NCBI GenBank assembly: GCA_030428615.1
Contig: JAUIDN010000012.1
Coordinates: 1 to 64,000, forward strand
Direction: 5' to 3'
Source: Alphaproteobacteria bacterium
GTDB taxonomy: Bacteria > Pseudomonadota > Alphaproteobacteria > Sphingomonadales > Emcibacteraceae
DNA length: 64,000 bases
Of this stretch, positions 51,622 through 55,535 are shown piece after piece. Under the pieces are notes generated by a model. The model was not told where the DNA came from, made no database searches, and saw only the letters and a list, made by a program, of their open reading frames with translations. The position numbers were made by a program, and so were the translations under genes. Each line of letters begins with the position of its first letter. Positions within the stretch are counted from its first letter, which is position 1.

Positions 51622-52493
51622 TGGGTAATATGCGGGAAAAGAAAGGCACCATGAAACGCGGCGAGAAAGAAGCAATAAGCTTGCGCCGTCGTCGGATTAT
51701 GAAGACCGTAATCAGTGTGGCGTCGGTGACAACGGTTTGTGTGGCCATAATAAGTTCAATCTATTTGTGGCGAAGTGGTAGCGTGGCCACGTGGGTAAAT
51801 ACGTCCGAAACAAAAATTGAGCAGACCCTGGTCGATGCCGGTCTGGTCGTGGAAAATATAGAAGTTGTTGGCGAAGAATTTGTGCGCAAGGCGGATATTC
51901 TGCGGGCAGCGAACATCGAATATGGTAATGCACTTCTTTCGTTGGATATAAATGAAATTATTACGCGATTAGAGCAGCTGGCTTGGATAAAAAACGCAAC
52001 TGTCAGGCGTGATTTTTCAGGGGATGTGACAATAACTGTCGTTGAGCATCACCCCGCAGCCATCTGGCAAGTTGAAAATAAGCTATGGATTGTTTCCGAT
52101 GAAGGCGTCCAGATTACGGATCAGAAACTGGAATATTTTGCAGATCTTCCAATGATCAGTGGCTTTGGTGCAGAAAAGCAATTGGAAGAATTAATTGGTG
52201 CTGTATCCGTAAATCAGTCCCTCTTTGAACGCGTGGAAACAGCGACGTGGGTCGGCGGTCGAAGATGGGATCTAATCCTTAAGAATGGCATCAAAATTAT
52301 GATGCCGGAAAAGAACTTAGTGCAAGCGTGGCAAAATTTATCAGAGCTTGAGCAAAGTGAACAGCTTCTGGCGCGTAATGTTCTGGCTATTGATTTTAGA
52401 GTGAAGGATAAAACGGTTGTGCGATTAACTCCTGAGGAAGCGGAGCGCAGACGACTGCTTGCGAAAACCAGTGGTAAGGGTGAAGAAATATAA
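51609..52493 (+). CDS. ftsQ: Cell division protein FtsQ
   Basis: A 294-residue bitopic protein. A basic cytoplasmic tail (SLRRRRIMK) precedes a TM (VISVASVTTVCVAIISSIYL), then a POTRA domain (VENIEVVGEEFVRKADILRA to TVVEHHPAAIW) and the FtsQ beta domain. It links FtsL/FtsB to the divisome. The ATG with GGAGG at 7 bp was chosen. Its end overlaps ftsA by 1 bp. Confidence 0.93.
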   Translation: MRAIMGNMREKKGTMKRGEKEAISLRRRRIMKTVISVASVTTVCVAIISSIYLWRSGSVATWVNTSETKIEQTLVDAGLVVENIEVVGEEFVRKADILRAANIEYGNALLSLDINEIITRLEQLAWIKNATVRRDFSGDVTITVVEHHPAAIWQVENKLWIVSDEGVQITDQKLEYFADLPMISGFGAEKQLEELIGAVSVNQSLFERVETATWVGGRRWDLILKNGIKIMMPEKNLVQAWQNLSELEQSEQLLARNVLAIDFRVKDKTVVRLTPEEAERRRLLAKTSGKGEEI

Positions 52494-53728
52494 TGCGCGA
52501 AAGAACCATTGCCATTCTTGATGTTGGCAGCAGCAAAATTTGTTGCTTTATTGCGGAAGTAGGCGGCGATTCAGACAGACCAAGGGTGATCGGAATTGGA
52601 CATCGTGAATCCAGAGGATTAAATCTGGGCGCAGTTGTTGACATGGAAGAAACCGAGAATGCAATCAGAACGGCGGTTGATGCGGCAGAAAAAATGGCGG
52701 GTGGCGATCCCATTGAAAATGTAACGGTCAATATTTCAGCAGGCGAGCCGAAATCAACCCAACTTTGTGTGGAAGTGGAAGTTGCCGGTCATGAAATAAG
52801 TGATGATGATATCGAAAGAGTTCTGGATCTTGGTCGGCATCATGTCAATGATCAGGAAAGGTTTGTTATTCATTCCCGACCGACAAGCTTTAGTATAGAT
52901 GGCGTCGCTGGCGTGAGGGACCCTAAGGGCATGTTCGGTGAAAAACTGGGCGTGGAAATGCACGTAACATCGGCATCCATAAGCCCCTTGCGGAATTTAC
53001 AGACCTGCATCAACAGATGTCATTTAAATATGATCGGTGTTGTGTTTTCGCCTTATGCATCAGGTTTATCAACGTTAGTGGCGGATGAGCTGGAGCTTGG
53101 CAGTATTTGCATTGATATGGGCGGCGGCGTTACCAGTATTGCAGCGTTCAAGGATAATGAATTTATTTATGGCGATATAGTGCCGTATGGCGGCCATCAT
53201 GTTACGCGTGATATTGCACAGGGGTTATCGACCCCTATAAATGCAGCAGAAAGGCTTAAGACATTGTTCGGTAGTTGCCTGTCTGGTGTCTCAACTGTAA
53301 GAAATCAGATTGATGTTACGCAGATCGGTGATAATGGCCAGGAAAGTGTCACAACGATCCCGAGACGTATGCTTACGTCAATTATTGAGCCCCGCGTTGA
53401 GGAAATATTCGAAATTGTACGGGATAAAATCAGAGAAGCCGGGCTTGAGAATACGGCGGGGCGCAGACTGATAATAACCGGTGGTGCCAGCCAGCTTGGC
53501 GGCGTTGAAGAACTCGCGAAAAAAGTTTTCAAATCCCATGTAAGGTTGGGGCGTCCTCTTAATGTTGATGGATTGGCGGATACCACAGCTGGCGCAGGGT
53601 TTGCGACTGGTGCGGGGCTTCTTTTATACGATGCGCAACGGCCGGAAGAACTTCATTTTATGGAGCAAAAAAAGCCGGCAACAGGATTTATCGAAAGCAT
53701 TACCAACTGGTTTAAGGAGAACTTTTAG
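52493..53728 (+). CDS. ftsA: Cell division protein FtsA
   Basis: A 411-residue actin-like protein that tethers FtsZ filaments to the membrane. N-terminal AILDVGSSKICCFIAEVGG (phosphate-1), SICIDMGGGVTSIAAF (phosphate-2), and IITGGASQLGGVEELA (adenosine region) are clear. The C-terminal GFIESITNWFKENF is the amphipathic membrane-targeting helix. It is followed by a 193-bp gap holding the ftsZ promoter. Confidence 0.96.
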   Translation: MRERTIAILDVGSSKICCFIAEVGGDSDRPRVIGIGHRESRGLNLGAVVDMEETENAIRTAVDAAEKMAGGDPIENVTVNISAGEPKSTQLCVEVEVAGHEISDDDIERVLDLGRHHVNDQERFVIHSRPTSFSIDGVAGVRDPKGMFGEKLGVEMHVTSASISPLRNLQTCINRCHLNMIGVVFSPYASGLSTLVADELELGSICIDMGGGVTSIAAFKDNEFIYGDIVPYGGHHVTRDIAQGLSTPINAAERLKTLFGSCLSGVSTVRNQIDVTQIGDNGQESVTTIPRRMLTSIIEPRVEEIFEIVRDKIREAGLENTAGRRLIITGGASQLGGVEELAKKVFKSHVRLGRPLNVDGLADTTAGAGFATGAGLLLYDAQRPEELHFMEQKKPATGFIESITNWFKENF

Positions 53729-53784
53729 TAGATATTGCCCGCACAGATTGAAATATAAGTAAGTTTTGCGGGAGAAACAGGCCG

Positions 53785-53818
53785 AAACGACTCGGATAGG
53801 AAAAAAAACGACTCGGAT
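53785..53818 (+). repeat. Direct repeat of a 13-mer with GANTC cores upstream of ftsZ
   Basis: AAACGACTCGGAT occurs twice, at 53785-53797 and 53806-53818, 21 bp apart (two helical turns). Each contains a GACTC, a possible CcrM methylation site. The placement between ftsA and the ftsZ promoter suggests a regulator-binding pair; the factor is unknown. Confidence 0.7.
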
Positions 53819-53848
53819 TCATTTTTTTAAAGACAGCGCGAATCACTT

Positions 53849-53876
53849 GCTATAAAGTATGTTAACTGTTTGTTAA
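53849..53876 (+). promoter_or_regulatory. ftsZ promoter with CtrA-type box
   Basis: GCTATAAA at 53849-53856 fits the Caulobacter-type housekeeping -10 (GCTANAWC). The -35 is weak. A perfect TTAA-CTGTTTG-TTAA box at 53862-53876 would overlap the start of transcription, a position expected to repress. Further GANTC sites lie at 53816, 53840 and 53885. Confidence 0.6.
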
Positions 53877-53921
53877 AGAAGACTGAATCCTGATTTAACA
53901 ATAGATTGTTGGGAGGTAAAG

Positions 53922-55535
53922 ATGACAATTGAATTTACATCACCGGAATTAACCGAACTTACACCAAAAATTACTGTCTTTGGTGTTGGCGGTGCTGGTG
54001 GTAATGCCGTGAATAATATGGTGGCAGCCGCGCTCAAGGGTGTTGATTTCGTTTGTGCGAATACGGATGCGCAAGCGTTAAGCCATTCGCAGGCGGAACA
54101 GAAGATTCAACTGGGTGCTGAGTTGACACAAGGTCTTGGTGCCGGCGCCCGCCCGGAAGTGGGACGCGCAGCAGCAGAAGAAACAATGGATCTGATTGTT
54201 GAGCATCTTGAAGGTTGTCATATGGCTTTTATTACCGCTGGCATGGGTGGTGGCACCGGAACGGGTGCGGCGCCGATGATTGCCAAAATGGCGCGCGAGA
54301 AAGGCATCCTGACGGTTGGTGTTGTAACAAAGCCATTTCAATTTGAAGGTGGTCGACGTATGAAGCTTGCCGAAGAAGGCATCACTGAGCTTTCAAAGTA
54401 TGTTGATACGCTGATTATCATACCGAACCAAAATCTGTTTAGAATTGCCAATGAGCGCACAACTTTTGCTGATGCATTTGCCATGGCGGATGAAGTGCTG
54501 CATTCAGGTGTCCGCGGTATTACCGATCTGATGATGCTTCCGGGGCTTGTTAACCTTGATTTCGCTGATGTCCGTACGGTCATGAGCGAAATGGGTAAGG
54601 CGATGATGGGCACGGGCGAAGCTGAAGGGGATAATCGGGCTCTTGAAGCGGCGGAGGCTGCGATTTCAAATCCTTTGCTGGATGAGGTGTCCATGAAAGG
54701 CGCGCAAGGTGTTCTTATAAATATTACCGGTGGGATGGATCTGACGCTATTTGAAGTAGACGAAGCAGCCAACCGCATTCGTAGTGAAGTAGATCCGGAG
54801 GCCAATATTCTGGTGGGGTCCGCGCTTGATTCAAGTCTTGATGGTAAAATGCGTGTCTCCGTTGTTGCAACAGGTATAGAGGTCGGGTCGTCATCGGCAG
54901 ATGATATTCCGCAAAAAACATATAGTCAGTCCGGCGAGGCCGATACAGATGCTGGTGAAAGCAAGGAAAGTGGTTCGGATGTAAAGTCGGAAACGAATGA
55001 AGAACCGCTTGATCTTGTCGATGAAGTGCAGGAAGAAACCGAAGTGCTGCTTAATCAGTTGGACGACAATATCAGAGACAAGAAAGAAGAAGCCAGTGTT
55101 GAAGAAGAAAATATTGCGGAGGACCGTGATGCTCCCTTTGTTGCACCAGAGCCGATGATACCGGAGCAGGAAATCGAGCCACTTATACGTGAACAAGACA
55201 TGATATCTGATCCTTATGCGGAGGCAGATCTTGCGAATAGCGAGCCACGTGAAAAGCCACGCCAAAAACTTGGTTTATTTCAAAACCTTCTCGGCGGGAA
55301 AAAGGAACCAATGGTTCATAAGGAACCGGTTCTGCGTCAGGGAGATATGCTTGGACCGGAAGTTTTAAAGACGGAGCGGGAAACTGATGCGGTTGAAGAG
55401 AAGCCGGCGGTTGTGGCTGAAAAGGAAAATATTGCAGAGCCAGCACCAATCGTAGTCGATGAGCCGGTCAGCGCAAAGGATGGAGAAGATGATCATCTCG
55501 AAATTCCCGCCTTTTTGCGACGGCAGGCCAATTAG
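53922..55535 (+). CDS. ftsZ: Cell division GTPase FtsZ
   Basis: A 537-residue tubulin homologue that forms the division ring. The GTPase domain has [14 protein letters not shown], the tubulin signature [13 protein letters not shown] near residue 106, and the T7 loop region [11 protein letters not shown]. After about residue 320 an unusually long acidic linker (about 180 residues, rich in E and D) leads to the conserved tail peptide [10 protein letters not shown], the FtsA-binding site of alphaproteobacterial FtsZ. E. coli FtsZ has 383 residues. A strong GGGAGG precedes the ATG. Confidence 0.97.

Follow-up and report, generated by a model that had tools for sequence, protein, structure and literature searches.

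The locus upstream of ftsZ raises the question of whether this division gene is coupled to the cell cycle and through which regulators. A sequence-only reading of the same DNA had noted five GANTC sites and a CtrA-type box in the ftsZ promoter and proposed that the gene is controlled both by CtrA and by methylation. We studied the gap between ftsA and ftsZ, 193 bp at positions 53729–53921 of the window (the whole 64-kb stretch of DNA analyzed), and found this two-layer proposal partly supported. The dense and conserved GANTC array at ftsZ, judged from its sequence, probably ties division to DNA replication.

Layout of the ftsZ promoter

All five GANTC sites of the sequence-only reading (53789, 53810, 53816, 53840, and 53885) lie within the gap, and its perfect TTAA-N7-TTAA is present at 53862–53876. 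The features of the locus, in order, are as follows:

52493–53728, plus strand: ftsA, the gene upstream of the gap (Pfam PF14450 and PF02491)
53785–53797, minus strand: upstream box 1, AAACGACTCGGAT on the plus strand; CGAGTCG on the minus strand fits YGAKTCG, with GANTC at 53789
53806–53818, minus strand: upstream box 2, identical to box 1 and 21 bp from it, with GANTC at 53810
53816–53820, strand not assigned: inner GATTC, found in part of the genus only (6 of 25 aligned family members)
53830–53835, plus strand: probable -35 hexamer AAGACA, its role assigned by position; AGACAG is invariant in the 25 aligned members
53839–53845, minus strand: spacer site CGAATCA; TGATTCG on the minus strand fits YGAKTCG, with GANTC at 53840
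53853–53858, plus strand: probable -10 hexamer TAAAGT after a 17-bp spacer; most aligned sequences read TAAATT, TAAAGT, or TAGAGT here
53851–53856: alternative -10 hexamer TATAAA after a 15-bp spacer
53862–53876, plus strand: TTAA-N7-TTAA, a CtrA-type box and candidate site over the predicted start
53885–53889, strand not assigned: GAATC in the predicted 5' untranslated region, present in 24 of the 25 aligned members
53911–53916, plus strand: GGGAGG, probable ribosome-binding site of ftsZ
53922–55535, plus strand: ftsZ (Pfam PF00091, 175 bits; PF12327, 133 bits)

The two copies of AAACGACTCGGAT form a perfect 13-bp direct repeat, spaced 21 bp, that holds two of the five GANTC sites. The block before ftsZ consists of two AAACGACTCGG boxes 21 bp apart, followed by AAGACA, by a spacer GAATC at 53840 between the putative hexamers AAGACA and TAAAGT, and by TTAA half-sites that cover the probable start. 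The sequence-only reading had placed the CtrA-type box directly downstream of a GCTATAAA -10 element. GCTATAAA is indeed found at 53849–53856, upstream of TTAA-N7-TTAA, but the family alignment favors TAAAGT at 53853–53858 as the -10, with AAGACA at 53830–53835 as its partner and 17 bp between them. The ftsZ transcript is predicted to start near 53865, a position overlapped by the box at 53862–53876.

Scarcity and clustering of GANTC

The genome comprises 3.39 Mb in 41 contigs, of which 1.264 Mb (37%) was examined for GANTC. We counted 59 sites in the window, 427 in 464 kb, and 1,174 in the 1.264 Mb, or 0.93 per kb, and the earlier expectation of roughly one site per 256 bp has to be replaced by one per approximately 1,080 bp. 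In the window, each of seven further patterns built like GANTC was more common than GANTC itself, with counts from 79 (CTNAG) to 317 (TGNCA), and GANTC is described as under-represented in Alphaproteobacteria in the accessible part of PMC3973325. Since the site is scarce, the cluster at ftsZ is not only dense, as had been claimed, but rarer than had been supposed. Its five sites span 101 bp, and five or more GANTC in 105 bp have a Poisson probability of 6e-8 per position, corresponding to ~0.2 start positions per genome. When sites within 60 bp of each other were joined across the 1.264 Mb, we obtained 1,009 isolated sites, 62 pairs, and 8 triples; there was no group of four, and the larger groups were one of five (ftsZ) and two of six (ccrM and ftsB), so that within this 37% of the genome, groups of at least four were restricted to ftsZ, ftsB, and ccrM. 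The stretches with ftsZ and ccrM had been put into the sample knowingly, while the ftsB array surfaced blind. On the Poisson estimate and the grouping counts in the 1.264 Mb, we reject a chance origin of the ftsZ cluster.

The TTAA-N7-TTAA pattern by itself is not rare, with 3 occurrences in the window and 50 in the 1.264 Mb. A -35-like hexamer followed within 1–6 nt by GANTC near an open frame was found 8 times in the 1.264 Mb, and ftsB (2), ccrM, and ftsZ make up four of these matches; one other is inside an apparent tRNA gene. Elsewhere in this genome, three GANTC lie at the 5' end of a gene reading like metK (L239:17225–17313, contig C32).

Conservation of the block in the family and beyond

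We found ftsZ in 56 of the 60 genomes searched, this genome counted, and aligned its upstream regions from 25 family members including this one; the remaining one of 26 (L097), with 4 bp of upstream sequence, was left out. Read 5' to 3', the alignment contains AAACGACTCGG, an A-tract, AAACGACTCGG again, a T-tract, AAGACA or TAGACA, GCGCGAATCAC, a TAAATT- or TAAAGT-like -10, TTAA half-sites, GAATC, and a ribosome-binding site. The starts of boxes 1 and 2 are 21 bp apart in all 25 members. Of the 25, 23 retain the GANTC of box 1, 24 that of box 2, all 25 that of the spacer, and 24 the downstream one; the exceptions in the boxes are G002 and G028 (box 1) and G001 (box 2). The site at 53816, with 6 of 25, is the sole one of the five without wide conservation in the family. 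Both upstream boxes fit YGAKTCG in 20 and the spacer site in 22 of the 25 members; in this genome, all three fit.

We derived a sequence model of the block from 22 of the 25 aligned upstream regions, and it matched once per genome in 28 of the 32 family genomes. These are all 28 in which ftsZ was found, and the four genomes with no match (G011, G023, G027, and G029) are those for which the search for ftsZ also came up empty. Genomes G003, G004, G007, G020, G021, and G022, six of the 28, are independent of the model; the block of G003 is on a different contig from ftsZ, so their adjacency is not established there. Under stricter filters, at which weak matches are lost, the model gave no matches in 264 other genomes of the order, and among 385 genomes of the class it matched this genome and two others, the latter with E ~6e-4; we took these two weak matches as chance, and the open frames around them showed no ftsZ by eye. 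The block was likewise not seen in the 19 ftsZ upstream regions read from the same order outside the family, nor in four more; a twentieth region read with the 19, that of G020, belongs to the family. Sister families of the order are without the block, so ftsZ control in general does not depend on it. Some other Alphaproteobacteria have clusters of GANTC too, with five sites within 300 nt upstream of ftsZ in three named members of the class (L056, L073, and L076), and clustering has thus probably arisen more than once. Genome G041 (L260), from a different family of the order, lacks the block but has seven GANTC within a stretch of ~100 bp ahead of ftsZ, a possibly convergent case. In a quick tree of FtsZ, the family fell with modest support on the side of Sphingomonadales and Kordiimonas.

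Regulators encoded in the genome

The genome encodes ctrA, gcrA, and ccrM, the three regulators invoked for the promoter. The single gcrA copy scores 142 bits, and its product aligns to Caulobacter GcrA (5yiu) over both domains, the DNA-binding domain included; gcrA was present in all 32 family genomes. The single ccrM copy has PF01555 and a RAMA domain, and its best PDB match is CcrM (6pbd, E 2.5e-148), while it scores 603 bits against the CcrM equivalog model NF050803, under the cut-off of 830. We found ccrM in 25 of the 32 family genomes, one of these a fragment. One ctrA copy scores above the NCBIfam cut-off (413.8 vs. 350 bits).

Related arrays upstream of ccrM and ftsB

Of the three copies of the 9-mer AACGACTCG in the genome, two are at ftsZ and the third lies 120 bp upstream of ccrM. 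The reversed control occurs 25 times, but as the control is not depleted in GANTC, the low count partly reflects the scarcity of that site, and the telling point is the location of the copies more than their number. A search of the 32 family genomes for AACGACTCG gave a match in at least 30. We compared the 70 loci around the matches, some of them duplicates of one place, by their flanking proteins, and the recurrent groups were ccrM/rnhB (9), ftsZ (7), and two others (8 and 5).

Six GANTC lie upstream of ccrM in this genome (L299:5625–5746, contig C8). Across 24 usable upstream stretches of 330 bp each (143 bp in L209), at least four GANTC were found in 24 of 24, and in 23 of 24 a TTGACN hexamer preceded GANTC by one or two bases. 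The YGAKTCG element on the ccrM side is located within the 3' end of the rnhB coding sequence, and there we compared 23 of the 24 loci, leaving out L209, the contig of which starts at this place. The element CCGAGTCGTTTT is found in 16 of the 23 rnhB ends. The 19 rnhB codons before the HRKSF motif are under strong synonymous constraint, and GGATATGGT within them is invariant in 23 of 23; the normalized synonymous codon entropy was 0.19 over 14 columns, compared with 0.72 over 52 upstream columns in the same 23 genomes (permutation p ~1e-5, with relatedness ignored). Mere coding conservation of rnhB (GPSRFH) was judged insufficient to explain the site, since synonymous change is suppressed, and this suppression makes a signal at the nucleotide level likely.

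The ftsB array has six GANTC in 141 bp upstream of the gene (L235:11338–11478, contig C21; PF04977). In the 26 of 32 family genomes where ftsB was found, its promoter has GANTC at approximately -14 in 26 and at approximately -25 in 24; the latter site comes four bases after a TTGACN hexamer, the same offset as at ftsZ. The array is dense mainly in this genus, with 2–6 GANTC in 150 nt in 12 genomes versus 1–4 in the 14 others. We found no literature joining GANTC, CcrM, and ftsB, or CcrM and divIC, within a search that most subscription papers lay outside.

A probable GcrA/CcrM-type promoter and the competing explanations

The published systems are compared here as described in the accessible parts of the papers cited. 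The extended motif for GcrA activation in Caulobacter is TGATTCG/YGAKTCG/YGAKTCK (PMC7987155, citing earlier work); CGACTCG of the upstream boxes and CGAATCA of the spacer read CGAGTCG and TGATTCG on the minus strand, and both fit YGAKTCG. In Brevundimonas, GcrA showed no extended-motif preference apart from slightly favoring a C in front of GANTC (PMC7987155). Among Caulobacter cell-cycle promoters, those that have GANTC in the -35/-10 spacer become active at 40–60 minutes (PMC4287350), and methylation activates Caulobacter ftsZ directly (PMC3973325). GcrA binding is methylation dependent; on hemimethylated ctrA P1, the footprint covers the -35 and the GANTC next to it (PMC3667746). In the sequence features tested, namely the genes present, a GANTC in the spacer, and the YGAKTCG context, the ftsZ promoter looks like one dependent on GcrA and CcrM. 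We consider it likely that it is a sigma-70 promoter activated by GcrA on CcrM-methylated GANTC, with a CtrA-type operator over its start.

Such a promoter would resemble that of Caulobacter ftsZ in being activated by GcrA/CcrM and probably repressed by CtrA, with helically phased upstream boxes in addition. Like the C. crescentus ftsZ promoter, which is CcrM activated and CtrA regulated (PMC3973325, PMC2217572), it has a promoter GANTC and a TTAA-N7-TTAA nearby. Eight of nine Caulobacterales ftsZ upstream regions combine CGACTCA or CGACTCG with a neighboring -10-like stretch and TTAA half-sites, and in two Caulobacter records other than C. crescentus itself (L080 and L082), CGACTCA is followed by the -10-like GATTAT and then the box. 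The GANTC in these two records adjoins the -10, whereas the spacer site here adjoins the putative -35; they have one GANTC within 200 bp of the start, whereas this promoter has two extra boxes 21 bp apart upstream and a further site downstream. GcrA-dependent sigma-70 promoters such as mipZ and ctrA P1 likewise combine GANTC in the -35/-10 region with a YGAKTCG context and an encoded methylase and cofactor, but differ in lacking conserved phased upstream copies, mipZ having two juxtaposed GANTC (PMC3667746). The Caulobacter ccrM promoter also contains GANTC and is most probably methylation regulated (PMC3973325); unlike that promoter, known here by description, the family has at least four GANTC at all 24 ccrM loci and a YGAKTCG element inside the upstream rnhB.

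The upstream boxes are open to a different explanation. Their conserved stretch reaches past GANTC into an A-tract and ACGACTCGG, AACGACTCG is found in this genome solely at ftsZ and upstream of ccrM, and the sites lie outside the -35/-10 position of methylation-activated promoters described in the accessible part of PMC4287350. A different activator could thus bind the AAACGACTCGG boxes at a site merely containing GANTC, while GcrA uses the spacer site only, or nothing. We regard this as unlikely: the boxes fit YGAKTCG, and members with a different middle letter (G001, G008, and G012 in box 1; G016 in both boxes) nevertheless retain the GANTC frame there. A strong promoter of the usual kind, with an AT-rich upstream element and incidental GANTC sites, would agree with the A- and T-tracts flanking the boxes and with the invariant AGACAG. 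GANTC is, however, scarce elsewhere, four of the sites are in register in 23–25 of the 25 members, and ccrM and ftsB also have GANTC clusters, with one site just after a -35-like hexamer, and this explanation appears highly improbable. We give equally little credence to a methylation-protected switch, in which a bound protein competes with CcrM and some GANTC stay unmethylated; persistently unmethylated GANTC are described for Caulobacter and Brevundimonas (PMC7987155, accessible part), but no hint specific to the ftsZ locus was seen.

Under the preferred reading of a GcrA-activated promoter, CcrM would methylate the ftsZ GANTC sites and GcrA on RNA polymerase would contact the methylated spacer site at 53840. 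The upstream boxes at 53785 and 53806, on one helix face and two turns apart, may further recruit or stabilize GcrA. Replication would leave the sites hemimethylated and alter ftsZ output, a trigger borrowed from Caulobacter, and CtrA, where present, would occlude the start outside the division window. As ccrM and ftsB have comparable arrays, one methylation cue would govern the methylase, a late divisome protein, and the Z-ring protein alike. More tentatively, and with the balance of probability against it, the three genes could form a lineage-specific module wired by GcrA-type box arrays: the ftsZ boxes, two turns apart, would act in an enhancer-like manner, several methyl marks being read at once to give a sharper, replication-counted trigger, ccrM would close the loop, and CtrA would be dispensable in some members.

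The two extra boxes at fixed helical phase, their conservation throughout the family, and the arrays common to ftsZ, ftsB, and ccrM look new. They would extend the Caulobacter logic, in which methylation drives ftsZ, to a distant family, where it would be the best-conserved feature of the promoter, and would add ftsB to it. Helically phased upstream boxes are not among the arrangements described in the accessible parts of the papers cited.

Variation in the proposed CtrA layer

At the aligned position before ftsZ, TTAA-N7-TTAA is perfect in 9, has one mismatch in 12, and has two or more mismatches in 4 of the 25 members. Some perfect copy is present within the last 110 nt before ftsZ in 11 of the 25, as G015 and G031 have theirs one register upstream of the aligned position; GTAA/TTAC variants of the half-sites are common in genus g3. 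At E ≤ 1e-80, ctrA was found in 22 of the 32 family genomes and not in the other 10, although a fragmented or diverged ctrA would escape this threshold. Six of the ten (G001, G002, G003, G005, G007, and G010) belong to the same genus and are 92–99% complete, and all six keep gcrA; the box is perfect in G001, G003 (L336), G005, and G010 and has one mismatch in G002 and G007.

The variable box and the six near-complete congeners in which ctrA was not found make the GcrA/CcrM part of the model firmer than the CtrA part. Of the cell-cycle control originally proposed for ftsZ, the GANTC half fares well on gene content and site density, with the regulators present, GANTC scarce in the genome, and four of the five sites kept family-wide. 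CtrA repression is plausible in this genome, where the box overlaps the predicted start in the position of a repressor, but is weaker as a rule for the family. If some members have truly lost ctrA yet keep GcrA/CcrM and the arrays, they would provide a natural separation of the two control layers. In this genome, ctrA itself was seen by eye to sit between cheR-like and fliI-like genes (L002), and three GANTC lie ~265–365 bp upstream of it (L002:2430–2535), with an AT-rich stretch containing TTAA half-sites in between.
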